NCBI RefSeq assembly: GCF_041260155.1
Contig: NC_091932.1
Span: 30,750,338-30,814,337 of the forward strand
DNA length: 64,000 nt
From: Ptychodera flava
Taxonomy: Eukaryota; Hemichordata; Enteropneusta; Ptychoderidae
Direction: 5' to 3'
In this document: one piece after another, positions 4,277-56,300 of the stretch
Layout: each line of letters opens with the position of its first letter
How positions within the stretch are numbered: the first letter of the stretch is position 1
Notes under the pieces: generated by a model
The model's input: the letters and a program-made list of their open reading frames with translations, nothing else
What the model was told of the DNA's origin: nothing
The model's database searches: none
Translations under genes and position numbers: made by a program

Positions 4277-4612
4277 ACAGAATGCCCCTCAGGGACAGTT
4301 ATTCAAACTCAACTTTTTGTCATACTTTTTTGATTAGCCGTTTGTGGGGGCTTATTTTAATGCTCTTTGGGCAAGAGAAAATTCCACCGTTTCAGGTTTT
4401 CGAAAATAAATTAATTTATTGTTCGCCATGGAGTTATCACAGGGATGGCAGCCATTTATCAGTGAATGTATGGTAATTTGTTTCTCTGGTACCAAAATTG
4501 CATGTTCACCCCTGATTTTTATTCCAATTCGGCAAGAGAATGGACGAAAGTTTTATTGAGGAAAGTTTGAGCAACAGTTTAAGTCTTTCACTTTAGAGGC
4601 CCTTTCCACCTT
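4277..4612 (-). mobile_element. MITE family A copy (GGTAGTATGC ends), reversed and worn
   Basis: This is the reverse complement of the repeat seen at 8010, 18708, 37303 and 61203. Shared blocks are the CCCCTCAGGGACAG end, the ATGGAGTTATCACAGGGATG block, the TCACCCCTGATTTTTATT block and the TTTGAGCAACAGTTTAAG block. The outer ends have decayed. It lies upstream of CMSS1 exon 1. Confidence 0.6.
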
Positions 4613-7800: not shown

Positions 7801-10800
7801 TGAAATTTCACCTTTCTGACTTTCAAACTTAATGTACCTGTTCACCTGCAATTCCCTGCAAACAGGTCGGTGATCACCATTTAGAACAATGGCTATTGGC
7901 CAAACCATGGATATGAAGGGTTAAATTATACTACTTCTATTGATACACAAGTTTAATGTGCCAGGGTAATCTCATTTAGTACACCAAAGTGTAACTGTAA
8001 CACACATTAAGGTAGTATGCACCTTGAAAGTGAAAGATTTAAACTTTTGTTCAAACTTTCCTCAAGGAATATTTCAACCATCGTCTTCAAAATCAATAAT
8101 AAAAATCAGGGGTCACTGTACAAATTTTGGTATTAGAGAAACAAGTTCCCCAAGATTTACCAATATTTTAAATTCAAAATGGCCACCATCCCAGTGTCAA
8201 CTCTATGGAGAAACATGAAATTTTAGATTTTCAAAAAGCTAAGACAATGAAAAGTTTTCCTACACCAAGAGCTTTAAAACGAACCCCCACAAGTGGTAGA
8301 TCAGAAATGAATTGTACATGTTTGAGAATCCGAATATCTGTCCCCAAGGCACATTCTACCGTTGAAAGAGAAAGAGAACATACTAATGCATTTACCAATA
8401 TCCTGTGTGTACACTTCTGCAGTGGTTACATTGGTGCAACAATTTCCAGCCAAATTTTTGTACATGACCACTAGTGTACAAACAGGTACAATGGGAAAAA
8501 TACAACAAAGAAACTTGAGTAAATTGAAATGGATTTCAGTCCTAAGACTAGTCTTAAAAATCAGAGAATTCTGTTTTGTTTTGTTTTTTCCAGAAAATCA
8601 CAGAACACTTACAGAAGGAGACGCAAACTGGAGCCAAGCTCCAAAACTTCAATGATTTTTTGCTGAAGGAACTGCAAGAGAAGCTGTCAGTTGTTGAAAA
8701 AGAAGAAATGTTGCTAGAAGGTATGTGTATTGCCTAACATTTCATATATGTGTATTGAGTCCTTATTGAGCTGTATTTCATTCTGCCCCATCTTAGAAAA
8801 TCTCCCAGGAACAAATAGGAAACAGTACGGAAGCGTATTCGTGCCATTTTTGTGTAAAGAAAAAAAATTAAAAATCTCGTAATTACGAGTTTTTGATTCT
8901 CGTAATTACGAGTTTTTGATTCTCGTAATTACGAGTTTTTGATTCTCGTAATTACGAGTTTTTGATTCTCGTAATTACGAGTTTTTGATTCTCGTAATTA
9001 CGAGTTTTCAATTCTCGTAATTACGAGAATTAAAATCTCGTAATTACGAGTTTTTATTCTCGTAATTACGAGTTTTTGATTCTCGTGACTATAAGCCCTG
9101 ATTCTTTTAGTTATCAGACAATCCATAATAACTGAATCCTTAGTATAGATTGAGCTCTTATTTCTCATACATATTGTTGGTTATTGTTCAATGAGAATAT
9201 GGTGTTTTCAATATAGTATTATCTTGATTTATAAGGTGTAGTAAGCAATTATAATACACTCGTAGATGAATAAATAAATGAATGAACTTTGGACTGTTAC
9301 ATAGCTACAATTGTAGATATTCAGTATGTTATCCATTAGATCAAAAGTCAAGCATAATAGCGTGTAGATTTTGTCTGGCTGGATAAACACTCTTTTTAGG
9401 GTGAAATATCGATAGTATGACATTATGCAAATATTTCACATCTGTCAACACCTTTATTAGAGTCTCACAACCTGATAAACACCCCCTCCCCGCCTCAGGA
9501 GATAATCCCCGAACTACGAATACCTGCCGATGTGATGTTATTTTTTTTACATCCAGCATAGATTGGCAGTTGTCATCATGTTGGGTTTGCACTAGAAACT
9601 ATGACGAACAACTGACATCTTCTGATACCCCTTCAAACAGCAGTGAATGAGGAAGTCGGACAGATTTCCAAACTTCCAGATTAGTATTATTTGCCAACAA
9701 AGATTTACACAATCAAAGTTTGTATGGAGACAGATAAAGTAAAGAATGTTTAGCAATCTGTGTCTTTGCATTGCTTCCTCCTAATAATGTAAAAGAATAG
9801 TACACAAACATTGATTATGATCAAGATGAATGACCGAATTGAAGTGCAACTCATTTCAAGAACCCAAGAAATGATTGAAAATGGCAAATAAAAGCGAAAA
9901 TATGTTTATTTTATCACAGTGTTATCAAGTAGAAGTGAAAAGTAAATCTCAAAATAGACGATGAGTTGAAATAACGCAGTGATAGTTAAATTTTCATATG
10001 CTTCCATAAACATTGAAATTACAAAATCATCATTATGCAAACATTCTGGCAATTTGAAAACCTCATAATTTTGAGATTTTTAGAAATTTGCGATTACTTG
10101 ACTGTAGTTTTTGACGATGTATTCATTTATTCGCAATGACAATGACGGACTATAGATTCTCATGACAAGATAATTCTCGTAATTACGAGTTTTTAATTCT
10201 CGTAATTACGAGTTTTTGATTCTCGTAATTACGAGTTTTTGATTCTCGTAATTACGAGTTTTTGATTCTCGTAATTACGAGATTTTAAATCTCGTAATTA
10301 CGAGTTTTAATTCTCGTAATTACGAGTTTTAAAATCTCGTAATTACGAGTTTTTAAATCTCGTAATTACGAGTTTTTGATTCTCGTAATTACGAGTTTTT
10401 GATTCTCGTAATTACGAGTTTTTAAATCTCGTAATTACGAGTTTTTAAATCTCGTAATTACGAGTTTTTGATTCTCGTAATTACGAGTTTTTAAATCTCG
10501 TAATTACGAGTTTTTAATTCTCGTAATTACGAGTTTTTAATTCTCGTAATTATGAGTTTTTAATAATCGTAATTACGACTTTTAAATCTCGTAATTACGA
10601 GTTTTTAATCTCGTAATTACGAGTTTTTGATTCTCGTAATTACGAGTTTTTGATTCTCGTAATTACGAGTTTTAATCTCGTAATTACGAGTTTTAATTCT
10701 CGTAATTACGAGTTTTAAAATCTCGTAATTACGAGTTTTTGATCTCGTAATTACGAGTTTTGATTCTCGTAATTACGAGTTTTAAATCTCGTAATTACGA

Positions 10801-13800
10801 GTTTTTAAATCTCGTAATTACGAGTTTTTAAATCTCGTAATTACGAGTTTTTAATTCTCGTAATTACGAGTTTTTAATCTCGTAATTACGAGTTTTTAAT
10901 CTCGTAATTACGAGTTTTTAATTCTCGTAATTACGAGTTTTTAATTCTCGTAATTACGAGTTTTAATTCTCGTAATTACGAAGTTTTTGATTCTCGTAAT
11001 TACGAGTTTTTAATTCTCGTAATTACGAGTTTTTAATTCTCGTAATTACGAGTTTTTAAGTCTCGTAATTACGAGTTTTTAATTCTCGTAATTACGAGTT
11101 TTTAATTCTCGTAATTACGAGTTTTTAATTCTCGTAATTACGAGTTTTTAATTCTCGTAATTACGAGTTTTTAATTCTGGTAATTACGAGTTTTAATTCT
11201 CGTAACTATGAATTTTTGAATCTCGATATTACTGGTTTTAATTCTCGTAATCATGTGTCTTCATTCTCGTTATCTACTCAAATGGCGTACTATCATGGCC
11301 TCTACACATTGTAGTTTTCCTCCAGCTACATTATTACCTCTATCTAACATTATTACAAGACTTTGGTCAGTCTGGGGGCATGATATATCATAGCCATTAA
11401 CATGAGAATGTTGCAATAGTGTTAAGGAAGTCTGTGCCTGTATAGAAACAAAACACTTCAGCCATGTTGCTTAGTTTGCCAATTTAAGGGCAACTTGTAA
11501 TCTGTAAACTCTGTACTTAGTGGATCAGCAAATCAAAATTAAAATTTACAGTTCTCACTTGCACCGAATGTCAAAAAGTTTGATACATCGCAACCATATT
11601 TGAAAAAATGCATTTATTCACAGCATAAATGTAATAAATAAAATTAAACTGAACTACAATTGATGACTAACAAACTTACAAGAAGAAAACAGTCAAATAT
11701 TGATTGCAAATGGCATTGGTATTCTCAAACAGGTGCGTTTGTTAAATTGTGTCTAGCCTATCGCAATACGTTTCCATGTGATTTACTCAAAGTTCACCAT
11801 CCATATTTTGGATCACTATCCGGTCAATCTGAAACTGATGGGAAAATAAGATATTTAGAACATAGTTCAATCACAGCATGATGTATCAACAAACCAATCG
11901 ATACAACGCACACTACATGCATAAACGCACAATGCAAGGCAAGCTGTACACAATGAAAATAGTTTGCAACTACATTAAGCGGAATAAGTAGGTAATATGT
12001 ACAATGCTCTTTAACAGGAATTGACTTGACTTCTTTCAATTAATTCCTGTTATTACTTATCAACTGATAGGGACATTAAACAGATCGCCCTGCATCAACT
12101 TAGATGTGAGCGCACAGCAAACAGGAGCTGTTCATACAGCATGCATATGCTGCGTACAGGTCTGTGTATTCCCGGCGTTATACGGCCTCCACCACAGCCC
12201 TGCAACGGTCTATGGAGATAACTGGCGACTGCGGTCCGGATCCGGACCGCAACGAAAAAACGGTCTTTTTGGCCGAAATTCTACTCTATCAGGGCAAAAT
12301 CCTTTCCCTGCCTACCTTTACCTCCTAAGGACCCCCAGGAGGCCATATAACGCCGGGAACACACAGACCTGTACGCAGGGCTAGCATATGCATGGTGGGT
12401 TGCTGTTGAAGTAGGGGTCATACAGGTCAATCACTCTTATGCCGCGCATTCGTGGCTAGCACATCGGTGATCATTGGATGGCATAGGTCTCTTATCCATA
12501 ACAGGAAACTGACCAATCTAGAAAGAAACATTTCAGTGAAAATTCAGGCCAACTACACCGCGTTTCCGACAAGAACTTCCCGTCCGCCCTTAGCTTAGCT
12601 GTGGCTGTGAGTGACCTTGACAACACTACATTCACTGATAATGGCGTCATTGAAAACAGTCGACGATGTAGTATGCTCATGTAATTCCGTTCAATTGCAG
12701 ATCTTACCTTTCCGTTTGGTAACACTCAAACAACTGCCCAATGAAGTTCCTGCTTCTTAAAATGTTTGTAATTGTTGACTGACTTCGAACATGTCGCACT
12801 GTTGGTGTGGTCAAATGGCTGGCATGGTAGGACTCGTCCCTTTGAAGCATGTTGCGTTCTCTTTCACCACGTGTCATTAAAAGGAGAAGTCGGCTACAAA
12901 TAGACGCTTTAGCACAGAAGTGTTAAATAAAACAAAACCCCAAGGAGCCCACGCAAATATTATTTGCTGAGCAGAAATATCACAAGAAAGGTGATGTCGA
13001 GAATTAAAATCTCATAATTACGAGAATCAAAATCTCGTAATTACGAGAATCAAAAACTCGTAATTACGAGATTTCAAATCTCGTAATTACGAGAATCAAA
13101 AACTCGTAATTACGAGATTTAAGAACTCGTAATTACGAGAATCAAAAACTCGTAATTACGAGATTTTGATTCTCGTAATTACGAGATTTCAAATTTCATA
13201 ATCACGAGAATGAAAACTCATAATTACGAGAATCAAAAATCGTAATTACGAGAATCAAAAACTCGTAATTACGAGATTTTGATTCTCGTAATTACGAGAT
13301 TTTAATTCTCGTAATTACGAGATTTCAAATCTCGTAATTACGAGATTTCAAATCTCGTAATTACGAGAATCAAAACTCGTAATTACGAGATTTAAGAACT
13401 CATAATTACGAGAATCAAAAACTCGTAATTACGGGTTTTTGATTCTCGTAATTACGAGATTTCAAATCTCAAAATGACGAGAATAAAAACTCATAAATAC
13501 GAGAATCAAAAACTCGTAATTACGAGAATCAAAAACTCGTAATTACGAGAATCAAAAACTCGTAATTACGAGAATTTAATACATGTAATCATGAGAATCG
13601 GAAACTCATAAATATGGATATTGAAACATATTTTATAATTATCTTTCATGAAAATGTAAAGTCTGTAATTGTCATTATGATTGAATATTTATGATCAAAA
13701 GCTTTTTTCTAGTAGGCAAATCGGAAATTCCTAAACTTTTAAAATGGTGTAGTTATCAAAAAGCCAGCATGTGAGCATAATGATCATGTCGTAACGTCAC

Positions 13801-16800
13801 GAGTCAAGTGAAAATTTACTTTTCATTGTGTTATATGATTCCATCTGATTGTCTAATTGAAATTTCCTTTTCATTTCCATTTAAATATTATCATTTCATC
13901 ATCACTTTTTCGCTTTTATTTGCCATTTTCCTGTGTTCTTGAAAGGGATTTTATGTAAATGTCAATTAGTTCATCAAATAGATAATACACATTTTTCGTG
14001 TAGTGTTATTTTATGTTGAGAGGAAACAATGCAAGGACACTCATCATACACAAGTCATACTTCTCTTTATCTGTCTATGTACATTATTTTTACATGAAAT
14101 GAAGCTTTGAAATCTTTCCAACTTTCTTGTTGAGGCCTACTGCTGTTTTAGATATGCTTTTCATACATGAAGGGGGATGTCGGACAGACACATAGAAATC
14201 ATACAGTAGGATAGTTCAAATATTTCAGAAGATGTTGGTTTCTCATCATGATTTCTAGTGTAGACACAACATGAAAAAACTGACGGTCTGTGCTAAATGT
14301 CAAAAGTTAACATCACTTTGGCAGGCACATGTAGTATCGGTGTTATTTCCTGAGAGGGGAGCTTTTCAGCTTGTCGGAGAAGACCCAAATATAGGTGTTT
14401 ATAGGAGTGAAGTTTTGGCATAATAGCATACTTATGCATTGCATCTTTAACTCTGAATGTATTGTCTATCCGGACAGACAAAATCTATAGGCCATGCTTG
14501 GCATGATGCTTTGCGTGACTTTTGATCTGCTGGATAAGTTACTGAATATCTACAATTGTAAGCCATGTAACAGCCCCAAAGTTTATTCATTCATTTATTC
14601 ATTAACAAGTTTACTATACTTGCTCACTACACCTGATCGAGTCAAGATTCACGTTAACCTTTGTATTCGTTGAATTATGATTAATAATACATATGAGCAG
14701 AGGTTCACAGTAAAGAGCCCAAACACCATAGAAAGACTGAGTTATTATAGTTTGTCTCATAATATGTAGTAAAATCAAGGCTCATAATTAAGAGAGTCAG
14801 AAACTAGTAATCACGAGAATTGAAATCTCGTAATTACGAGAATCAAAAACTCGTAATTACGAGAATCAAAAACTCGTAATTACGAGAATCAAAAACTCGT
14901 AATTACGAGAATCAAAAACTCGTAATTACGAGAATCAACAACTCGTAATTACGAGATTTTAAAATTCGTAATAACGAGAATCAAAAACTCGTAATTACGA
15001 GAATCAAAACTCGTAATTACGAGATTTTTTTAATTTTTTTTCTTACAAAAATGGCACGAATACGCTTCCGTAGAACAGTGCTTCCCTTGCTAGCAATAAA
15101 ATGCCAGAATGGATTAGTCAGTCAGACAGACAGACATACAGACAGATAGATACCTATTAGATAGCTGGCCATTAGATAGATGAATGTACAGACATTGGTT
15201 AATAAACATACACAATGTACAGAAGTAACAAGGTAAAAAACAAATGGAAAAATATCACTATGCTAGTCAGTTTGCTTGATCAATACAATAATTACTAGAT
15301 TCAGTGAACAATATTAGAGGGTGATAAATGTATCAAAAATAAGTTCATAATGAAAATAGACTGATGCATAACTTATTTCACGCAAGCATATGTAGAAGTG
15401 TGTACATGCAATAAGTGTACATTTATAACAAAATGACAGAAAAATACATCCAATCAATTTACTAAAAGAACATTTTTTGAGGGATTCTCAGAAGGGGTTG
15501 AGAGACTGTGTGGACCTGATGTCATGTAGGGCTTCATTCCATAGAGCAATATCAGTGTAGGCTATTGCAAATTTACATTTTGTTGTGTTTACAGCAGCAT
15601 ACCCAGTACAGCAATACCTGATGCAGTGTTAAAATGTTCAGCTCCTTTGCATTTGTGTATCAGTGGCTACTCTTATCTAGGTTCAGGGATCACTTTAGGG
15701 CGCGATAACGCGATATTCACGCTCAAAAATCAGAAAAATCGCATTCAGAAAATCAATTGGGCAAAAAAGTCGCGCCGATAATTCAAATGGCGCGTACGTG
15801 ATACATTTACGCGATCTAAATTCATCGGTAATATTTGGCAGGTTTTCAGTACAGAACCACTCATTGTGTCGCCGTAGAGAGCGCTATAATTACGCTAGAA
15901 AAAAGCTGTTGCAGAGTTACCCGTTTCAACAGCGTTTGTGATTGGTTGCCAACAGGAAGTTTTGCGTTCATTGACAAATCATTGGAGTCGATACAGCAAG
16001 TGTTCATTGCTGATGTACAGTGTGTTGTCGTCACTCAAAATGGCGCTTTCGAAGGAATATTCGTGTCCAGTACGAGTGGTAGTGCGAAGAAAAAACGAAA
16101 ATGCACTATTCTGGACTACTGTACTTCCGTTACTCCCGCACTAGAAAGTATGGATTCGATCGCCTCCGATTACAACTACACTCAATGTGACAGTTTTCGG
16201 ACAGGGTAGTGAATTTCGCCCAAAGCCGTTTCATAAATGACGAGCACAACGAAATCTTATTATCATACCTTTCGAAACTTTATTGTGTTTATCCTCAAAC
16301 TGTTAACACCGACAGAAGTGGCATTTAGGGGGTCAAAGTTGCCAAATTTTTGCCCCCATGTTGAGTGCGTGTAATCGGACTGCTACAGTAATCGGACGTC
16401 GTATTTTGAATGTGATAAGGGGCTAAATATTGATATTTTGAAACTTCGAACCCCGATTTTCAATTTCGATGTGTTTAGAAAACTATATGGAAATATTTCG
16501 TGATAATTAGTTTAAACTATATTTCAACGTGTATAGTGCTTAGATATCGGACACGGGCTGTCCCTGTGTGTTGCTTTCGACACCTCGTATCGTACAGTGT
16601 GGCTAACTTCACCAAGTTTGTAGCCCGAAATAGATTCTACTAAAAAAAAAAAAATCCAAAACGGACGGCAGCGTCACCTGACTTAATATGCTGTAGCATG
16701 ACTTGTAAAACGCTATCAAAACGGAGCGAAGTGAGTATAAACGACCAGTCATGTCTGAAAACTGTCTCACTGAGTGTATTGTTATGCAAATTAACCAATA

Positions 16801-19964: not shown

Positions 19965-21297
19965 TGTCAAATTGGAGCATGTTTCTGTCATGTGAGGCCT
20001 GCCAACCTATTGGCTTGTAGTGTTGTTATTTGCTAGTCAATTTCAAGGGTCCGCCAGGCCTATCAGAACCAAAGAATGAATTAAATCATACTTGGGTGGT
20101 TTTTTCATGACTTTGATAAAGGCAGAAAGGTGCAATACATTTGCAAAAATTGTGAAATATGACCAGGAATTTCAAAAAACAACCTCGACTTGTGATAAGC
20201 TCACAGTTCAGCTAGTAATGCTGAAGTGTCATGATTTCTCGGAGCAATGTAATAGTGAAATGCCATGGTAACGCTGACATTTCATTTGTGTATTCATTGA
20301 ACTTCTATCCTGCTTATCGTACATATCTGGTTCATATGTAAACCAGTACTTTTATCCCCAAGTACCGTATATATAATCAGAAGCAGCCAACCAACCTATT
20401 TAAAGAAATTGTAACCAAAGGTGTTTTTATGTGTAAATATAGCATTTAAAAGAATTTTGGGCAAAATTAAATTTTGGACGGGAAACAAAAGTTGTTCGCA
20501 ACTACCCTCCCATCACGGTTTGAAAGGCTTCCCCTCCCACCCACACAAATTTTCCCCTCTTCCCTCCCGAAACTAAACTCTGCAGTGCCCTTGTCTCAAG
20601 CATAAGAGATCCAAAGTAAATTCCCCTCTGTCCTGTCATCAACACATGATTTGTCCTCCCCTCTAGGATAAAAATAAAAAAAATCGCCCCCCCCCCCCCC
20701 AATTGACAGAAAAGCAATGCCCTCTTCCCTGCTCACTGATAAAATACAATATATGCCCTCCCGCCACCGAACCACTTGTCAACACCGTCTTACACAAACA
20801 GTTTCATAGACGGCCCCCCTGGATAATGTCCTAAACAGGTTCATAATTTCATAGTCTCATCAAACACCGACGCAAAATTGGAGTGACCTAATTTGCACAG
20901 AGCCTCAACTATTTACGACCAGCGTTTTCACCTTTCAACCCGGCAGGTTGTGCACTTCTGTGTATTTATGTATCAATATTATCTCTGGCCACTGGTACTG
21001 GCGTCGTCATTAGTGTCACTGAAATGATACAAAGGTGTCAGGTAGTAATGATTTTGGAGATATCTCGCGGATTTCGATCACAGCAAACGCCAGTTGTCAA
21101 CAGGGCACTGTTGTACGATTTGGTTTGATTGACCCGGAGAAGATCCCTGCCTTGTTTGTATGGTCACAGAAAATCTGTAAGTGATTTTCTTTTTCGTTTC
21201 ATGATGCTCAACGTGAAATAATCTTTCTCAGTGATCATGAGTGTACTTATTCATGCTTATACAATACAAGCATTTCATAGGTCATCCTAGCTGTGGG
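19965..21297. other. intergenic, no gene recognised
   Basis: Between CMSS1 and the nested repeat block no exon was recognised. A pyrimidine-rich tract (about 20505-20780, with a run of Cs near 20687-20700) gives a glycine-rich frame on the - strand, which I take as an artefact. Confidence 0.5.
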
Positions 21298-21365
21298 TCC
21301 ATAGCTGTAGTGTTTTCGGACGGGATTTCTGCCTTTTACGGGATGGTTTTGACTTTTACGTTTTT

Positions 21366-23737
21366 AGCTCCCATAGCCATATGTATATATGGCAATGGAA
21401 GCTATTCTTATAGGCTAGGAAAATGTCTGTATGTATGTCTGTACGTCTGTCCGTCAACATCAAAAACTCCCAAAACCGCTGTACATTTCATCTTGATATT
21501 TGGTGTGTACATGGATGATGGGCTGTAGATGAGATTTTGTTCAAATGAAGTTGTCATTGCCAAAAATTAGCATGTAAGTACTTTGGGCTGACATGAAATG
21601 ATTGTGCGCATCTTGGGTCAGTATCTTGGACTTGCTATTTTTCATGAATTTTTTTGTAATTTTCTCCCATTTTTGGTCAAAAAATCTCCTGCTCTGAAAC
21701 CACAAGTCCAATTGATTTGAAACTTGGTATGGAAGTGCATAGGAGTGACCTTTCCCAAATTTGGGCAAATCGTGGTGAAATTTGCATATTTTTAGTTTAC
21801 ACGTCCATAGACTCCGATGTATAAGGCAGATCTCCATAGACTCCCATGTACCGGTATAAGGCCACGAAAAATAAAAATTTAGTTTCTCATCGTATTCATA
21901 TTGCAAAAAGGATGCAGTGACACAATTTTTAGTCCCCACGGATGAAGTGCAGTGAGCTTATAGATTGGGTCATGTCCGTCTGTTCGTCCATCCGTGAGTC
22001 CATCCGTTCACGCAGATATCTCGGATATTTTGACAAAATGTCATGTGACCTTGATGACCTTTGATCTCAAATATACATATTTGTCCATAACTCAGTAACC
22101 ACAAGTGCTACCGCCCTTCATATATGGTATGATGGGACAGCTTATGACGCCACATATTGTACCTCATTAATTATGCACATATCTAATTTTGAGCGAGCCA
22201 ATAGAGCTAGAGGTCTGATTTTTGGTATATAGGGATAACTTAGCAAAACAATTTTTTTGACAAAATTTCACGTGACCTCGGTGACCTTTGACCTCAAATA
22301 TACATATTTGTCCATAACTCAGTAACCACAAGTGCTACAGCCTTCATGTATGGTATGATGGGACACCTTATGACGCCACATATTGTACCTCATTAATTAT
22401 GCGCATATCTAATTTTGAGCGAGCCAATAGAGCTAGAGGTCTGATTTTTGGTATATAGGGATAACTTAGCAATACAATTTTTTGACAAAATGCCACGTGA
22501 CCTCAATGACCTTTGACCTCAAATATACATATTTGTCCATAACTCAGTAACCACAAGTGCTACACCCTTCATGTATGGTATGATGGGACAGCTTATGACG
22601 CCACATATTGTACCTCATTAATTATGCACATATCTAATTTTGAGCGAGCCAATAGAGCTAGAGGTCTGATTTTTGGTATATAGGGATAACTTAGCAATAC
22701 AATTTTTTTGACCAAATGTCACGTGACCTCGGTGACCTTTGACCTCAAATATACATATTTGTCCATAACTCAGTAACCACGAGTGCTTCACCCTTCATGT
22801 TTGGTATGATTGGACACCTTATGACGCCACATACTGTACCTCAATAATTATGCGCATATCTCATTCTGAGCGAGCCAATAGAGCTGGATGTCTGATTTTT
22901 GGTACATAGGGATAACTATAGGAGAGAAATTTTTTGACCAAATGTCATGTGACCTCAATGACCTTTTACCTAAAATATATGTTTATGTCAATAAATAAGT
23001 AACCACAAGTGCTATGTCCTTTGTATTTAGTAGGATGGGAGACCTTATGACAACTTTACCTCATTAATTATGTACACATCTAATTCTGGGCAAGCGAATA
23101 GAGCTAGAGATCTGATTTTTTGGCATATAGGGATAAATTAGCAATATAATTTTTTTTCAAAATGTCATGTGACCTCGATGACGTTTGACGTTGATTATAC
23201 ATATATATGCATATTTCAGTAACCACAAGTTCTATACCCTCCAATTTTGATAGGATATTAGACCTTAAGATGTCACATCTTGTACCTATTTATTATGCGC
23301 ATATGTATTTCTTGGCTGGCCAATACTGCTAGAGGTCTGATCTTTTTTCCCGATTTAGAACCATAACTTAGACATGCCTCATGTGTTTCAAATTGGGAAC
23401 AACGACATAGACCTATGTGCCCATAGATCTCAACATATACACTCCAGTGATACTTCTTAATGACCACATTTTCCCTGCCCCATCAGACTAATACTCCTAT
23501 TACAAGTGGGGACTATGTCATTGTAAATGACTTGTTGAGTTAATGGTTGTATCACAGTATTCGATATATCTAATTCTGTATTTTTTCTATTTTATATTCT
23601 GAATAATTACATTAAACATATTTCACTGTCTCCAGTACATTTCATTTAAGTATTCTCACTTCATGCACTTTATCCCTTTCACACATGTTCAAATATCTGA
23701 CCAGAGAACAAACACTAAATAGTCCAGGATGGGAGCT
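21366..23737 (+). mobile_element. mosaic element copy 1 (AGCTCCCAT ends, AGTCCCCAC module, 225-bp units)
   Basis: Bounded by AGCTCCCAT at 21366 and ATGGGAGCT ending at 23737. A leader with TGTCTGTATG/GTCTGTCCGTC repeats and a CCATAGACTCCCATG block precedes a second inverted-end module, AGTCCCCAC (21931) to GTGGGGACT (ending 23514), which carries six tandem units of about 225 bp. The same modules are arranged differently at 41194-44683. No protein was recognised, so the class is unknown; ends rich in short hairpins and CCGT repeats mark the family. Confidence 0.65.
22030..23380 (+). repeat. 225-bp tandem units x6 with TGACCT half-site triplets
   Basis: Units begin near 22030, 22258, 22485, 22708, 22931 and 23155, each opening TTTGACAAAATGTCA and passing through GTCCATAACTCAGTAACC and CCTCATTAATTATGC. 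Early units are close to identical and the last two are diverged. Three units carry an intact set of three TGACCT motifs spaced 3 and 1 bases apart (22273-22294, 22498-22519, 22724-22745). Confidence 0.9.
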
Positions 23738-24072
23738 ACAGTGCCATTGACGCTATTTTTAACCTAAACGTTTTACGTTTTCAACGTAAAAGTCAAAACA
23801 AGCCCGTAAAAGGCAGAAATCCAGTCCGAAAACACCACAGCTATGGACCCACAGCTAAAAGGTCAGTCTGGTCAGCTTGTTTACAAAGTATCATTTAGCA
23901 TTTTATACGAACAACCCTAAGTATCTCAAAAGCTGTGTCAGTGTTATATCGACTCGGAATCGGTAAATTTCTGAGAAAAACCCCGTAGATATAAACAGTA
24001 TCACGAAATAGCCGAAACACGATAGAAGACGATTTTGCCTGTCCGTACTCTATCAACATATTCCTTCCGTAC

Positions 24073-39700: not shown

Positions 39701-42700
39701 TAAAATTTTAGAATCAAAATATATCATAGTGCAGGTAACTCCCCTTCCAAGGCGGTGTGAATCTGTAATCATAGTTTTCAGCAAGTCTATGATAGTCTGT
39801 GATCTTGGATCACTACTATTTTTTTTGCCTTCAGCCTGTGTAGTTTAATCTCCATCCTGTTATTGATTTCTATGATCAGTAGTATATGCAGGTCTACCAG
39901 GCCCAACTGTAACATCACAGTGTATTGTGGATACTGGCCAAATTATGAAATACAAAAAGAATGTGTCCTCTGTAGCCACTGTTGTTTATTTGTTATTTGT
40001 TTGTTTATTTTGTTCATTTGCCCAGTTTTTGCCTGAGTGATGCGTTTGCCAACATCTACAACATTGAGCTAAGCAGTGCCCACTTGCCAGAAAAGCCGGA
40101 CGGCTGCCCATACAGGGTCATTGAACCGCACCGGCTGACCCTGAACGTGACACCTATCCAGAACAAACCAGCTAACCCAAGATCGCAACAACCACCGAGT
40201 ATGCCCATGACAACAACGATTGTCAAACCCTTTGATGATGTAACAAGGAGAAAACAACTGGAGAGTGATTTTGGTCCATTCTCTCAGGTCAGATCATGAA
40301 AATATTTCACTGTATGACTGGCGGGCAATAAATAGTGAAAGGTCCAGTAGCTGTAACTATTTTGTTTTAATGTCAACAACAGTTTCTTGTTCTACTGCCC
40401 CAATCATGTTGATATACTCGGTATTCAGCTTGTCTACTCAGCCTGTACATGTGTAAGTAAACTGCATTGTTACAGTTGACAAAGTGAATTGTGTTTCAGA
40501 CTAGAATTTAAACGTGAACAATACTACTGGCTGCATTTTACAAGTATAGATGCTGTGTTGACAAACCAAAAAGTTGGTGTTTCACCATGCTTTGGGGAGT
40601 AGAACAAAAACTTGCAATAGATATAGAAAACAAAAATTGTGGAAAAAATGATCAAATACTTACAGCTACTGGTCTTTCAACAGTGTTTCACTCTCGTACT
40701 TCGATGATTTCCAAATTTTAGCCCATTTAGGAAATTTTTAAGCATTTCTTGTCATTCATCAATAGACATAACATGTGAAAGTGTCTTAGGGCAATGAGGA
40801 CAACTTTAAGAAGTAGGCTTGTCTCCAGTATCAAACTCTGGATTCTGTTCTCCAGGCAGACAAATAAAATAAAAGGCGCTCTGCTTGAAGAGAAGTTAAC
40901 ACATACTGTGACTTAATGTGGAGTGTTCCTCAGGGACAAATATTTGGACTCAGATACTTTTACATTACTCTTTTGGTTCACCACTTCTGGGGCCTCATTT
41001 TGAACCCATGGAGTAAATAAAATTTTCATAGGCTTATATATGTGGAAACAGAAAATTAGGTTTTTCCCATAGAGATAACACAGGGATGGTGGCCATTTTG
41101 AATTTGAGTAATTTGTTTCTCAAGAAGTACAAAATTTTGCGTGGTGATGAACCCAAATTTTTATTCATGATTTGTAAAAGGGAATGGTTTGTTAGTCCCC
41201 ACGGACACCGTCCGGGGGGACTTATAGGTTTGGTCATGTCCGTGCGTGCGTCCGTGCGTCCGTCCGTGCGTCCGTCCGTTCAAGCAGATATCTCAGAGAC
41301 GCCTGGAGCGATTTCGTTCAAACGTGGTACAAGGATAGAACCATACCTCATACAGATGCACGTCGATTTGTTTCACAATGCGATCAAATTTGGCCGTGGT
41401 AGAGGACTTTTTAGTTTTCACCTCCATAGACTCCCATGTATAAGGCAGACCATAGACTCCCATGTATAAGGCAGACCATAGACTCCCATGTATAAGGCAG
41501 TCCATAGACTCCCATGTATAAGGCAGACCATAGACTCCCATGTATAAGGCAGTCCATAGACTCCCATGTATAAGGAAGACCATAGACTCCCATGTATAGG
41601 GCAGTCCATAGACTCCCATGTATAAGGCAGTACATAGACTCCCATGTATAAGGCCAAGATAAATAAAAATTTAGTTTCTCATCGTATTCATATTGCAAAA
41701 AGGATGCAGTGACACAGTTTTTAGTCCCCACAGATAAAGTCCAGGGGGCTCATAGATTGGGTCATGTCAGTCCGTGAGTCCATCCGTTCACGCAGATATC
41801 TCAGACACTTTGACAAAATGTCATGTGACCTTGGTGACTTTGACCTCGAATATACATATTTGTCCATAACTCAGTAACCACAAGTGGTAAACCTTTCATA
41901 TATGGTATGATGGGACACCCTATGACGCCACATATTGTACCTCATTAATTATGTGCATATCTAATTTTGAGCGAGCCAATAGAGCTAGAGGTCTGATTTT
42001 TGGTATATAGGGATAACTTAGCGATACAATTTTTTTGACAAAATGTCATGTGACCTCGGTGACCTTTGACCTCAAATATACATATTTGTGCATAACTCAG
42101 TAACCACAAGTGCTACACTCTTCATATTTGGTATGATGGGACACCTTATGACGCCACATATTGTAGCTCATTAATTATGCACATATCTAATTTTGAGCGA
42201 GCCAATAGAGCTAGAGGTCTGATTTTTGGTATGTAGGGATAACTTAGCAATACAATTTTTTTGACAAAATGTCATGTGACCTCGGTGACCTTTGACCTCA
42301 AATATACATATTTGTCCATAATTCAGGAACCACAATGCTACACCCTTCATATATGGTATGATAGGACACCTTATGATGCCACATATTGTACCTCATTAAT
42401 TATGTGCATATCTAATTTTGAGCAAGCCAATAGAGGTAAATATATGATTTTTAGTATATGGGGATAGACTATAGGATAGAAATTTTTTGACAAAATGTCA
42501 TGTGACCTCGATAACCTTTTACCAAACATACACGATTATGTCAATAAATAAGTAACCACAAGTGCTATGTCCTTTATATTTAGTAGGATGGGAGACCTTA
42601 TGACAACACATGCTTTACCTCGTTAATTATGCCCATATATAATTGTGGGCAAGCCAATAGAGCTAGAGGTCTGAATTTTGGCATATATGGATTAATTAGC

Positions 42701-45700
42701 AATACAATGTTTTATTTTCAAAATGTCACATGACCTTGATGACCTTTGACCTTGAATATGCATATATATGCATAACTCAGTAACCGCAAGTTCTTTATGC
42801 TTCAATTTTGATAGGATAATAGACCTTAAGATGTCACATCTTGTACCTCATTTATTATGCACATACATATTTCTTGGCTGGCCAATACAGCTAGAGGTCT
42901 GATCTTTTTTCCCGATTTAGAACCATAACTTAGACATGCCTCTTGTTTCAAATTGGGAACAATGCAGGGCTTGACAATTCCTATCGCCCGACGCCCGGGA
43001 CAAGTGAAATTTACGTTCGGGCAAGTCAAAAATAAAATCTGGTCGCCCGCCGGACAAGTTGTTTATACAACTTCTGGCGCAATCAACGCGAACCTAAGTT
43101 GCAGTTTGTGCACATATCGCCCGATTTGCGTTGTGGTTCACACGAAATAAATGTCAATCACTGACTTTTTAGATACAATTGTGACGTTCTTCCGCGATTC
43201 ACTTGCCGACTCACACAATGTTGCAATGTTTTGATGATCGACATGAAATTGTTTCATCGTCCAATTAAAAAAGTTGCTTAAAATTTGGCGTAAACAGCAT
43301 TTCTTTGTTGTATACTGACTGCTCCTCCCCAACAAATTAGGCCAAAAATTGCAAAACCCAATCACATTGCTTATCGGCGATCGACCGTACAGTACTTCAC
43401 AATCATTTATGCGGCCTCGCGAGGTAGACGAACATTGTTGGCAGATAGTTTGTGGAGTGATCGCTGTAAATATGAGTATTTTACGGTAATATTTCAACTA
43501 ACACAAACAAGGCATTGTGCATTTTCGCGAGCCAGAGCGTAATTTCCGCTCCGCAGACCTACGCAAAAATCAAGCCAAGCTGTCGCCGTAAAGAGGCGCG
43601 TACTTTACGACGATGGGCATTGTGTCACTCTCAGAAACGATGTAGTGATGATTTACGACGGCGCCATGCACGAGGGCCAGCGTGAGTGGGATCGTCTGAG
43701 AATCGATGACTCGATGTGATGATTAGAACGATGTTTCTGACGAAAGATCTAAACATAAGCGTTATGATGAGGAAAAACGCCGTAGATGTTATCTCCCGAA
43801 ATGGAAAGCACAGTGGCCTTGAAATATGACGGTTCCAAAATGTTCTTTACGTCGCGTCGTGTCTCAAATACCCTACCATTGCCAAACCATGGAGGTAGGA
43901 AGAGACTATAGCCAAACCAAGCGAAATGCTTTTCTTGACGGATGCGACATGTTTCGCATTGAATCGATAAGGTCTCACGAGTTTAGTCAACCGCATTTGG
44001 ACTGTTTGCGCATCACAGATGAGATCGTGACGGGGACAATGATTGTGGAAATTTTGTGGGTCCCGCTGAGCCCGATATGGTTTCACTTGCCAACATCCCG
44101 ATCGCATGCACTCGCAATGCGTGAACCGAATGACTTCGACCAGCGACAGAAACTGACCAATCTTTTTTCGCCGGCATTTATGCATGCCAAACACGGGAAG
44201 CCGATGTATGATATTGTGTACCTTCAAATTCAATGTTAGCCCTGCGTACAGGTCTGTGTGTTCCCGGCGTTATACAGCCTATTGTGATGGGGGCCGTATA
44301 ACGCCGGGAACACACACACCGTACGCAGGCCTTCCTCAATGTTAACTTTTGAGAAAAATCGGCGTCAACATCGGCGAAAATTACCAAAATAAGAAAGCCC
44401 TGAAAGCCGGTACGGAATTCGTCGCAAGTATTTTGGTCTTGATTATTACAAATGGAGGACAAGTAAAATTTTTGAGAGGACAAGTGAAATTGAAAATCTA
44501 CTTGTCCGACGGACAAGTGAACTGGAAAAAAAATTGTCAAGCCCTGCAATGACATAGACCTATGTGTCCATAGATCTGAACATATACACTCCAGTGATAC
44601 TTCTTAATGACTTCATTTCCCTGCCCCATCAAGACTAATACTCCTATTACAAGTGGGGACTATGTCATTGTCAATGACTTGTTCCTTATAGAAAGTTTTA
44701 GCAAAAGTTTATCTTCCAATTTTGAGACATGTACTTCCTTAATGGCAACTTTGTCCCGTAAGGCTGTCACTAGCAATGCCAGGACTAACCCAACTTTTGT
44801 CAATGATGGAGTGTGACCTTTCCACAAGGAATATGAGTCAAAAGATAGAGTCATCAAATGCATTGTCTTTACAATTATATTGTACTTGAATCCCATTGAC
44901 AAGAACCTTGAAGGATTGTAAAGATTGGATTGGATTGTAAAGAGGTTGATATAGCTTTCTGTGTCTGAAATAAACTGTTTTTTGTTTTGCAGACTGCACC
45001 CAAGCCACCGCAGGCTGCTGGGAGAGGCATGGTAATGACAGACAGTACAAAACCACTACGACGACCATACTCAGTTGGTAAGTGTATGTAATATAACACT
45101 TCCATGAGTGGGATGAAAAATGGTGAGGTTTTTGAGCACGGTACAGCATTCATGTGTGATCAACACAATCCTGTGCAGTTGTAACTGGAGTGATTTCTTC
45201 CATCCGTCCATTCATTCATTCATTCAGTCATTCATTTGTGCTGACAGGTATTGCTGCAAGTATGAGTGGTGTAACATTGAAGAGTGAGAAGACAGATGAT
45301 GAAGACTGGCCAACTCTTGGTGGTACGTACCGCAGTCCAACAAATTTTGTTCTGAGATACGTGTAGATGCAGTGTGTGTTGATGAAGGGCTAACTGCAGG
45401 AGTATTGCAAGATTTTCAGCAACCTGCCCAAGTCTCCATATCTTTATTCTGGCTGGATCAGTCAATGAAATTGGAAAACCGGTGTAAAGAAATCTAAACC
45501 AATAATATTATAAGTTACATTATTCCACAGGCTACCGTTCAAATTGTATTGAATAGAGAGTTTCATTCAGATAAACTAAGCAGATTTTCAGTGTGGTCTG
45601 CACAGTTTGTGAAAGTAATCAAATTTCTTCACCCCCAATATCCTGTATAGAGGTCCATGTATACTCAACCATTGACAAGTGTAGTTTTGTCCAAACCATT

Positions 45701-50313: not shown

Positions 50314-53300
50314 ATGTCAATCATGCCTGGGGCTTCAAGCTCCCACAAAGCTCCGACGAACTCGGAATCGGAAACCGCAAGAAATGGCAGTGGAAATGAC
50401 AGCGGAGGAGACAGCTGCTTTGGCTGGTTGGTTGTAGCTGGGTCTCACGTTTGCAACCTCTTCGTTTTCGGATGGTACCAGGCCATCGGTCCCCTATTCG
50501 CCGTTGTTCAGCGTTATTTTGACGAGACTTCAGCCCGCACGTCGTGGATACTTGCATTCCTAGTATTTCTAGAAGCGAGCATAGGTGAGTACGATACAGT
50601 CTCGCTTTTGACACACAGAACATTCTGATAGATAAATCAGATGTTTTTTTGAAAAAAAAATGTATCACAGTCTGATATTCGGGTCTCTTTATTCGCATGG
50701 GGCCATATTTACGGAATGTCTATCAATTCAATCGCAACCTAAATCGCCACGCGCGTTTCAATAGGGATATTGGCTATTGGCACGCGCGTGTCAATAGCCA
50801 GGTGTATATGGAGGCCCGGTCTTGTCAAACTTATGTTACATTAATTTTATTGTGCTAAAATTAATTTTATGTAGTCTCGAATTACTAGTACTGGCAATTA
50901 ATTTTGTATTAATTAAACATATTTTAAATTAATCTTACATGCTGGAATTAATATATGTTGTCTAGAATTAATATTCACTGCTTTCTTGAATTTTCTATTT
51001 TCTTATACTAATTTAATCTGTTAAAATTGATTTTATATGTTGGAATTGATTTTGTGTTGTCTAGAATTCAAGTTAATTACAGGGTTTGAAATACTTTTTT
51101 TTGACAACATGCACTCTGTGCATGTCAGGTTTTGCATCAAACTGCACCAGCAGTCTGAGTACCTGCACTGTCACCCAGGTCATAGTTTGTCAACTAGGTA
51201 TTCCAAATTATCATCTCCATCATCCCAAGAAAGTTCCTCTGTATGCATTCGTGGTCCATATGGCCGTGTTTGTGGTCTCCTCTGTGTTTTACTGTCTTTG
51301 AACCAAAGTTCAATTGCAGAATCTGGATCAAATGTGTCTATTGTATCTTTACTGAGATTAATTGTCATCAGCGCTGTCAGAGTTTCTGGCTTCAGACGAC
51401 TTCTCCAATCATTCTTGATGACTGACATCAAGGAAAATCCTCGTTCACACACTGATGTGCTGCATGGAATCAACAGCACAATCTTCACCAGCAAAAGTAT
51501 GCATCTGTACTGGTCTTCAAATAGGACCTGAACTCTCTGCCATAAATCTAGGTACTTCAGAGGCTGTGTTTCTCTGATCTGGATTCTGGTACTGTGAGTT
51601 TCAGTGCTGTCCACTGGATAAGAGTGCTTATTTCATCACACCCTCTACTCTGTAGGATACTTTCAAAGTGCTTATACAGGAACTTGACTTCATCGTCGCC
51701 ATAGTGCTGTAGGTCTTCATCATCCTGAGGCCACATAGTAGGATCAAATACTACTGTTGCTTTCAGTACTTCATCTTGTACCAGGTCTTTGAATCTTGTA
51801 TTAATACATTCCACTGACAGCTCAACAACTTTTTTGGCATGTTTCACAGCTTCCTGTTGTCTGGATTCTTGGGTTGTACCTGTATTTCGAATGGGTCTAC
51901 CCTGTCCTTCATCCAGGGTCACTCCATCATATACCAGTTTCCTCTGACAAACTGAAATACCATCCATCATAGTCTCCTCCAGTTTCTGTTCAGATGTGTA
52001 GTCTTGCAATAGTTTCAAGACAGATTCAGCCATACATCTGACCCTCTCTATGGTTGTATGTTCATCCTGAAGGGTTTTACTGAGTGCTGATACCATTCTG
52101 AAGTATACAACCAGGAATTTCACAAACATCACAAACTTTACATTCTTCATGTTTTTTAGGAAATACTGTGCCTTCTCTTTGCTTTCCTTTCCACCATTTA
52201 TTTTGATATCTTCAAGGTGTGTAATATGGACTCTGTAGTTCCGTAGCAGAGCTTGAACTCCCCTTTCATGATGAGGTACCCATCTTGTTCCACTGACATT
52301 CACTGGCCGTACTACTGTGATTGACAAAGCTTCCCCAGCTCTTTGAAAAGTAGACCAGTTCAACGGGGAGTACTTGTAAAATTTGTACAAGTTTTGCAAG
52401 ACTTCATGAACACTTGTAAGAAGTGGCATTTGCTTCAACACATCTTTCACAGCAAGTTCAAGTCTGTGGGCAAAACAGTGGACCACTATCAAGTGGGGTA
52501 CATCAGTTTTCAGCCTTGCAGCCACACCAGACTTCCTACCCAACATCACACTTGCACCATCAAAACTTGATGCAACTAAAGTCATTTTTCCATGTTTTTC
52601 GCTCAAGATCTGTCTCCACTGCATCCACTAAAGCACTAGTGATGGACTCCGCATCAGCTTTCACAAGGGATTTGAATGCGACAAACTGATATGTTGGTCT
52701 TCCATTTTTGATGTAATTGACATACACAATTTCTTCATCAGTAACACTTGTATCAGTGCTGCCATCTGATAATATGCTAAAGAACTCCGAGCTGTTCAAG
52801 TCTTTCACGATTTCTGCATGTTTGGTTTCAAAGATGTAATCAGTAAAGCACCTGGCCTGTTTGTCACTGACATATGTCTCCCCCACACGTACATTGTTGA
52901 CAGCTAACAGGCGAATCTGTCCTGGAAAATCAGAGAATGGTTGACCAGCTTTAGCTAGGTAGAATGCTACACGAAACAAAACTCTCATTTGTTCTTGTTC
53001 TGCTTTTTCCATTCGAAGCACACATCTTTCTATTGGTCGCAGTTTTCCTGTACTTTCTCTATTTTGCTTAATATTCATGGCTTGAAAATGTGTTTCAGTC
53101 TCTTGATGACCTTCAACGATGTGTAAACGGAATGAACTGCTACCCTGAGTACGGAATTTGTTAGGTTTCCCACTGTTATCAAACTGTTGGCAAACAGAGC
53201 AAAACATGCAATTTTTGTCTTCATCAAAGACAAGCCATGGATAACTTTTTAACCAAGATCTTTGGAATCGATAAAGTTTTTTCTTCTTCACTGGAGGATC

Positions 53301-56300
53301 AGGGGTTTCATCCGGATTTTCTGATGTACTCACGGTACTACGGTCCCAAGTGACAGTTGAACTTGTAACACTGACGGATGGCATGGCTTGACTACACGAT
53401 GATTGACGCTTGTCTGACTCCGTCTTGGATTTTTCAGTTTCCGCAATGCATGGTCGAACATGCATTTCATCGGACTTCTCAGATGACTTTTTAATCCCAA
53501 AATGAAGGAGGGTCCGTTGTTTTGACATTTTAGCGGTTAATTTTCTCGAGTCTCAATGAAAAAAATTCCACCACAGAGGAAACCAAAACATTGCCATGTG
53601 GACGCAATCGAATACAGCCGATGTAAGCCGATAGGTCACGATGGGGCCCCAGAGGGCATTGTAACCAAAAACGTTGCCATGTGGACGTAATCGAATACGT
53701 CCGAAATAAGCCGAGGGTCTGCCCGTAGGGCATTTTTTGACAAGGCTATGCAGTCTGCTTATATGCAAATGAGTAAAGTGCAGAGTTTTGGGCCCTCTAG
53801 GCTATGTATACTGGCGAGGCTCATGCGTAGCTAAATTTCCGGTTTGCGGACTTTACGTAGTTCGATAAATTCATGGCAATATCAACAAAACTGAAAAAAA
53901 ATTTCCAGTCAAAATGTCCAGAACGAGGATGATTTCGCATATGAAGACAAAGATCTTATTTTTTTCATCTTTTTTTCAACATGCACAGTGTGCATGTTGC
54001 TCTGGCGATCTACCTGCACCATGGTGATATGGACATGCATAGTGCAGTGTGCACCCGGGTATTTCGAACCCTGTTTATCAGTATATCGATATAATTTTCC
54101 ATTTTTTATTTAACTTGCTGAAATAAGTTCATGTCGTCAGGAATTAATTTTACTAGTACCTCGAATTAATTTTACGTGGTGTCAGAATTAATTTTGTGTG
54201 ATCGTAGAATTTGACAAGCATCAACATTTTTCATTCAACATTGATCAAATTTTGTATTCCTACAGGTCCTTTTTCTAATGTCTTCATCAAAAGAGTTGGA
54301 TATCGAACGACAGTACTGATTGGCACAATTATGTCATCCACCGGATTCTTCATAAGTGCATTTGCAAGGAATATAGAATTTCTATACTTCAGTCTAGGAA
54401 TTCTCGTGGGTGAGGCACATATTTTTCAAACCTAAAGAATCCTTATCATACTAGAGGTCCAATGTCATCTCTCTGTTAGTCTTTGTATCAGGTGCAGCCA
54501 ACGAACAATGCCCTATTAGAGAGGTCTTTACTATGACAAGATGTATTTTGCATGACAAGTAATATGAACTGACTATTTTTAAGTCATGAGGGTAATTAGT
54601 TAGCTGTTCATAATTTGCCCTCCCACTGAACATTTTTCGACTTACCCTCCCGCACTCAAACTTCATTTTTACCTACTCCCCACTTATTTTTGCCTGTTTC
54701 CCCTCCCCACTGTCAATTCTTGAAGCTCCCCTGCCCTGTGGCGAAAAAAACTTTCCGATTCCCCCTGCCCTGGAAAAAACTCCCCTCAATATTTTTCATT
54801 CAATTTTCCTGCAGACATGAAGCTACCCTATCTAGAGATGAAAAAACCTGTCTTTTTTCCCCATGCCCTGTGAAAGAAATTCCTCTGAAAATAAACATTC
54901 CCATGCAGACACATACTCCAGTGGCCTTCTACCGGAAACACCATGGCTCAACTTCCCCTGTAGCTTCCCCTCTCTCCTCGTTTTTCGCAAAGTCCTGTCC
55001 CCGGAACAATCAACCGATATCTGCCCTGCCCGACCAAAAAAATAAAATTTGCTCCCCTGCCACCTAAAAATATGTCCCCTGCCCAAGCAAAATTAAAATT
55101 TCCCCTGCCCTCAAAAATTGCTCCCGGAATAGCTTTTTCAATGAATAGCTCCGTTGGCTGCACCTGTTTGTATGTCAGTCTGTTTGTCCATCCATTTGTC
55201 AATCTGTGTGTAGACCAAGTTTGTGGAGCTCATAATTCAAAAATTACCCCGTCAATGTGACCAGCTTTGATATGTGGAATGTTTAGATGTTGATCCATAA
55301 CAGAATGGAATCTCGCAGATGTGGATAGCAGAATAAGAAAAAAAATACAAAAATACATGATTTTTCATACAATTCAATAGCTACATTGATGAGAAAGTTA
55401 TTACTTAGATATTTGGTACATATGTTGGTAGGGACAATGTACACATTATTTTGGTGAAATAGCATAACATTGGTGTGTATGACGTATTTTTGAATTTTTC
55501 CAATTTTTGGCGAAAAGTCTTGTTTCAGGAATCACATATCAGATAGGTATCAAATTTGCTTTTCATGTTTTTTAAGGATCATCTAATTATGTGTCCAAAT
55601 AATGATGAAATTTTGGTACGTAAATATGTGCCAATGGGAAGACAGAAGTTTGTTCATATTTGACATACACCATGTTTTACAAAAATTTTACCATGAAAAT
55701 ATCTTTATGGTGTGTTTAAAAGAAATTTCTTGATACAGATCTAATAATTGGGGACAATTTTTGCCTGTTTTGGTAAACCCCCCCCATGCCAAATATGATA
55801 TGCTTGAAGTCCCTGGCCCAATTGCAAAAACTTTAAAATCACTGCACATTTCACCTGTGTATTTGGTGGTAGTAGATGCAGGCTCAACTGAAAATGTGTA
55901 TTTGTTCAAATAAAGTTCTCATTTACCAAAAATAAACTAATGGACAGCAAAAGTGCAAACTTGGTGCAAATCTCAATAACCATTAGATTGTCTTGAAAAT
56001 CTGTGTATTCATGTATTGTAAAATTGCATCAGAAAGTCGTCATCAAACTATTGTCGGATTAAATCTCATGTATGGCACGTAATCAAGGCCAATCCCCATT
56101 TTGGAATTGTACTCTCAATATTGGATCTGTAAACGCAATTTTCAATTTTCAAACTCCCATTTTGGATTCGTACATCGCACTTTCAACTTTCGTACCCACA
56201 ATGTTCGAACTCCCATCCGAAGTCCCACCACCGATTTTTCTTAGCGGTCTTCAGTACAGTATTTGTGTAGGCATCCCTAAGTTGCTTCATTATAGTTAGT

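Follow-up and report, generated by a model that had tools for sequence, protein, structure and literature searches.

What kind of mobile element carries arrays of a short palindrome in both of its arms, and why would it keep them? This question is raised by a locus in a 64-kb stretch of the Ptychodera flava genome (contig NC_091932.1; "the window", with positions counted from its first letter), where a structure with inverted arms has a preferred span of 8826-15072 (6247 bp). The reading that we favour, and to which we assign about an even chance, is that of a non-autonomous foldback-type DNA transposon with IS3EU/GingerRoot-like ends, in which a dimeric transposase provided by another copy would use the palindromes as additional binding sites.

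Layout of the element and its relation to known foldbacks

From the outside in, the left half of the element consists of a terminal repeat, array A, an arm of about 1.07 kb and array B, which borders a 1.7-kb middle. The right half continues with array C, an arm of about 1.15 kb, array D and the second terminal repeat. The arrays thus occupy mirrored places in both arms. The features are:

8820..8825, plus strand: left flank AAACAG, candidate 6-bp target duplication (5/6 match)
8826..8869, plus strand: left terminal inverted repeat, starting TACGGAAGCG
8876..9095, plus strand: block A, outer left array, 10 units, 9 exact
9096..10169, plus strand: left arm outside the arrays, 69% identity to the inverted right arm
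10176..11257, plus strand: block B, inner left array, 48 units, 41 exact
11271..12994, no strand assigned: middle, with no inverted self-likeness except a nested hairpin and no protein family
12151..12377, no strand assigned: nested small hairpin element with its own inverted ends, foreign to the original element
13011..13618, minus strand: block C, inner right array, 27 units, 17 exact
13621..14774, minus strand: right arm outside the arrays
14781..15023, minus strand: block D, outer right array, 11 units, 8 exact
15032..15072, minus strand: right terminal inverted repeat, finishing with CGCTTCCGTA
15073..15078, plus strand: right flank GAACAG, candidate 6-bp target duplication

The original prediction of about 75 perfect palindromes in four blocks was borne out. 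The exact 14-mer CTCGTAATTACGAG is found 75 times in the window, always within 8876-15023 (9, 41, 17 and 8 copies in blocks A to D), and does not occur in 100 dinucleotide shuffles of the window. With up to 5 mismatches allowed, there are 96 units (A 10, B 48, C 27, D 11), which follow one another at a step of 23 bp in 72/92 cases and 22 bp in 18/92, and Tandem Repeats Finder independently reported four arrays with a period of 23. The inverted arms were likewise recovered by self-alignment, with 716 of 1032 aligned columns identical outside the arrays (69%) and a local alignment score of 333.5, compared with at most 28.5 in 30 shuffles. The expected terminal repeats of about 40 bp were also found (8826-8869 versus 15072-15032; 93% over 44 columns), with 28 identical base pairs followed by a 3-nt gap, the sole departure, and then 18 more identical bases, without any substitution. 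The predicted flip of spacer direction between the arms holds as a rule, left-arm spacers being mostly TTTTTGATT or TTTTTAATT and the commonest right-arm spacer AATCAAAAA, but it has exceptions, since at least three spacers in block C and one in block A are reversed. The two arms also have a spacer consensus in common, TTTTTGATT, which is that of A and D and the most frequent spacer in C, and blocks A and D share a 112-bp exact inverted stretch.

The middle, leaving aside the nested hairpin of about 0.23 kb, shows no inverted likeness within itself (score 15.5, compared with 12.0-16.5 in 10 shuffles). The small hairpin elements at 12151-12377, in this middle, and at 44233-44332 have a common end, TGTGTGTTCCCGGCGTTATA. 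Although 32 stop-to-stop frames of at least 50 aa overlap 8700-15200, the longest is 119 aa; no transposase was recognised inside the element, and a Pfam scan of 7 element frames returned no family. The window holds no Rfam family in its 64 kb, and no further copy of the arms or arrays. Viral and prokaryote collections contained 0 stretches with the exact array pattern, and viral contigs 0 with the 21-bp end, but these collections include few animal sequences and are uninformative about the family; a protein search with the open frame spanning block A and the left end, aimed at gene models lying over other copies, gave no candidate. The element probably lies in an intron, because an apparent splice donor, identified by eye at 8721, precedes its start by about 105 bp. 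Outside it, the sequence at 8007-8360 is a dispersed repeat of about 350 bp, numerous diverged copies of which occur on either strand, with relatives near 4279, 18236, 18705, 34614, 37013, 37300, 40918, 61208 and 61668, and a reverse transcriptase fragment (Pfam RVT_1) is present at 677-1324 on the plus strand.

Long terminal inverted arms with short tandem repeats around a middle domain are the defining structure of foldback elements, and this is what we find. MITEs are short, usually below about 1 kb; the element resembles them in being non-autonomous with inverted ends, but differs in its 6247 bp, its arms and its arrays. FB and the sea-urchin foldback elements are of the same general design, and the original statement that no named family has this design did not survive comparison with Tm1, Tetris and Galileo, whose arms are made of tandem repeats. 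In the available passages of the respective papers, Tm1 of root-knot nematodes is a foldback with 13-15-bp units and a 9-bp duplication (PMC3169594), Tetris of Drosophila is a foldback with units of about 220 bp and 8-10-bp duplications (PMC4079207), and the THAP domain of the Galileo transposase, also of Drosophila, was shown to bind two sites inside the arm repeats (PMC3688188). As far as these passages go, all three resemble the present element in their long inverted arms of tandem repeats, unrelated middle and transposase-less copies, and most foldbacks are apparently Mutator-like, with exceptions (PMC4079207). There are also differences. The foldbacks described there mostly belong with Mutator or P elements and have duplications of 8-10 bp, whereas the present element has IS3EU-type ends; its repeat unit forms a perfect palindrome, unlike the longer repeats of Galileo, which those passages do not describe as palindromes; and each arm has two arrays, about 1.1 kb apart. 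A limited literature search, run without Repbase and without pairing IS3EU with foldback, found no published foldback whose ends are IS3EU-like or whose unit is palindromic, and literature searches with the 14-mer, its 12-mer parts and the terminal sequence found no publication. The foldback design is known, and the element is most likely a variation on it, set apart by an unusual repeat unit and unusual ends.

Variation within the palindrome arrays

The chief rival to the binding-site reading accepts the same foldback, but takes the arrays to be unbound passengers, generated by slippage, unequal exchange and conversion between folded arms, with recombination or replication keeping the palindromes perfect. 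We consider this a real possibility, if clearly the less probable one. To weigh it, we compared the palindromic core with the spacer. Substitutions from the consensus were seen at 47/1344 core sites and at 94/648 spacer sites (counting the 72/92 spacers of 9 nt), about four times fewer per site in the palindrome, although the spacer count is inflated in block C, for which the column consensus TTTTTAATT was used while some C spacers are inverted; without block C, the counts are 25/966 and 40/450. The core was the less variable part in each block, contrary to what passengers would lead one to expect (Fisher values of 0.048 for A, 5e-5 for B, 3e-12 for C and 0.047 for D, which overstate the significance, as sites and units are not independent). 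Moreover, since the core contains two CpGs, whose transitions make up 16/47 core changes, mutation alone should leave it less stable rather than more. Lower core variation is the pattern expected of binding sites, though homogenisation can account for part of it.

Palindrome correction was considered as a cause of core conservation, and no sign of it was seen: of 21 imperfect cores, 0 had changed while remaining a perfect palindrome, which also speaks against unbound passengers. Among the imperfect cores, at 10176-13572, 14/16 CpG transitions fall on the inner CpG cytosine of the TACG half (G4>A 8, C11>T 6) and 2/16 on the other position (C3>T 1, G12>A 1); these counts are small and may include changes copied by unit duplication.

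The traces of array growth are where the passenger reading finds its support. In block B, identical spacers are adjacent at 14/46 steps compared with 5.75 expected, a number reached in 0/5000 shuffles, and this block grew locally by unit duplication; no clustering of identical neighbouring spacers is seen in A, C or D, however, which counts against passengers as a general account. Array edges are the most decayed parts in several blocks, a point for the passenger reading, with decayed units in A, B and D mainly at the end distal to the terminus and block C lacking that polarity. Template switching or inversion at the palindromes may account for the reversed spacers of blocks C and A, and those of C are also counted in favour of passengers. 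On the original suggestion that the arrays may have grown after insertion, local growth is seen in block B, but the mirrored positions of the arrays in the two arms speak against such growth as the full account.

Folding at two scales, which had been predicted for DNA or transcript, is real as a potential, both for single units and for the array. A lone 14-mer folds weakly, as a hairpin of -2.8 kcal/mol; 14-bp stems form between adjacent units (83 nt at -27.1 compared with -6.6 kcal/mol), and 222 nt of array B reach a predicted -78.8 kcal/mol, far below the shuffle mean of -23.7. Such strong single-strand folding would suit the passenger reading. It is, however, to be expected wherever identical palindromes stand in an array, and is no proof of function on its own.

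Ends, target duplication and age of the arms

The element begins and ends with TACGG..CCGTA. The 6-bp flanks outside these ends, AAACAG and GAACAG, agree at 5/6 positions with one mismatch, the only good match among flank lengths of 2-12, and 365/57741 positions (0.6%) have an equal or better 6-bp match at the same distance. In the available passages of two papers, IS3EU elements of rust fungi have TAYGG..CCRTA ends, terminal inverted repeats (TIRs) over 30 bp and 6-bp target site duplications (TSDs) (PMC12730594), and IS3EU termini are always TA..TA, with TSDs usually of 6 bp (PMC10045372). The present ends are of the same TA..TA form and fit TAYGG..CCRTA; they resemble those of IS3EU/GingerRoot also in being inverted over more than 30 bp and in the candidate 6-bp duplication at 5/6, while the element differs in having no recognised transposase. 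As the ends fit the published IS3EU pattern and the outer flanks match at 5/6, the TA probably lies inside the element. The original prediction was therefore right that TA occurs at both ends, but the TA more likely belongs to the element than to the target, and the reading of flanking TA gives way to one of TA..TA ends with a candidate 6-bp duplication.

The alternative is a TA-inserting element, Tc1/mariner-like or of another TA family, in which the TA found at both ends is the target duplication and the ends start with CGGAAG. Ends of Tc1/mariner elements usually start with CA, which counts against this reading, as does its leaving the 5/6 match outside the TA to chance (0.6%). Published IS3EU ends, moreover, include the TA (PMC12730594 and PMC10045372). 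ISL2EU, for which the available text gives AT duplications and ends usually starting with GG (PMC4482050), does not fit TACGG..CCGTA and 6-bp flanks, and membership in it was rejected; we regard a TA-inserting element as unlikely.

No palindrome arrays are described in the passages of the IS3EU literature that were searched for palindromes. However, two oyster satellites have been classed as IS3EU-related in the accessible part of one report (PMC8268682), so tandem repeats tied to IS3EU are not new in themselves. Neither the term IS3EU nor the term Ginger appears in the main text of the P. flava genome paper.

The terminal repeats bear on the age of the arms. At the divergence of the arms, 45 columns free of substitution would arise by chance with a probability of 7e-8. 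Since the ends are far more alike than the arms, the arms are, on this comparison, old: their divergence appears to long predate the present insertion, while the ends and arrays stayed alike. A recent duplication of a whole arm was rejected, the arms being 69% alike and the ends without substitution. Selection during transposition would be the natural reason for the likeness of the ends; conversion between them is the alternative.

A second element in the window, at 56071-57247, has TATGG..CCATA ends with 19/20 first bases alike, compared with 14-16 of 20 for the best such end pair in 20 shuffled windows. It is flanked on both sides by TCTCATG, a perfect 7-bp match that 19/62809 positions equal and a departure from the usual 6 bp of IS3EU. 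BLAST revealed degenerate direct and inverted repeats in its subterminal parts, and Tandem Repeats Finder no long-period array. Next to it, an exon frame of 298 aa (57258-58154) is 100% identical over 91% to a Ptychodera flava monocarboxylate transporter, and all four of the hits listed come from this species. At 51560-53552, on the minus strand, two frames that overlap, one encoding a C17orf113-type zinc finger and the other with a weak, below-cut-off Pfam match to DUF659, belong to what is presumably a hAT-type derived gene. A 226-bp tandem repeat is present at 21288-23857 (about 6 copies) and 41604-42962 (about 5 copies), 85-91% alike between the sites, and the former lies between 75-bp inverted repeats that are 95% alike. 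There, a TACGGG pair at 21337/23808 is not taken for IS3EU-like ends, since the inverted repeat continues outwards.

Possible role of the palindromes

Under the favoured reading of a foldback with transposase-binding arrays, we infer that a related copy elsewhere in the genome makes the transposase, which would cut at the ends, and that the palindromes are additional docking sites for its symmetric, dimeric DNA-binding part. Docked subunits would crowd near each end and so improve the recognition or pairing of the ends. Slippage or unequal exchange would have enlarged and reshuffled the arrays, with the palindrome retained because it is the bound part and the spacer left to drift. The mirrored arrays, the conservation of the core despite its CpGs, the distal decay in A, B and D and the Galileo precedent all count in favour; the one TSD mismatch, the lack of decay polarity in block C and the spacer consensus common to both arms count against. 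The 14-mer palindrome is also absent from the terminal repeat itself, so that one protein domain would not bind both through this motif. The original suggestion of a transposon whose arrays may be binding sites is consistent with the evidence.

Alternatively, a host factor might bind the palindromes and so drive or silence the element. TAATTA, which is a homeodomain-type core, is central in all 75 exact units. Yet the 33 TAATTA motifs outside the arrays in the window come with 0 copies of CGTAATTACG, which means that conservation extends beyond such a core, and this explanation is distinctly improbable. An ordinary satellite between unrelated inverted ends, which would account for the tandem nature alone, is very hard to sustain, as the ends enclose all 75 copies in the window, the four blocks form mirrored pairs and the arms between them are homologous.

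More tentatively, and with less confidence than in the transposase-binding foldback itself, the element may be a foldback of the IS3EU/GingerRoot lineage whose nearly 100 perfect palindromes serve a dimeric transposase as a cooperative landing platform, by which a large non-autonomous element could outcompete short ones; 56071-57247 would then be a relative using the same principle with other repeats. So far, foldback arms have mainly been associated with Mutator-like and P-like transposons, and the role of internal arm repeats in transposition has been tested in few cases. If the proposal is true, an IS3EU-type foldback with a short, many-copy palindrome would be a clean object in which to relate repeat number to transposase binding, and the foldback design would arise in another superfamily.
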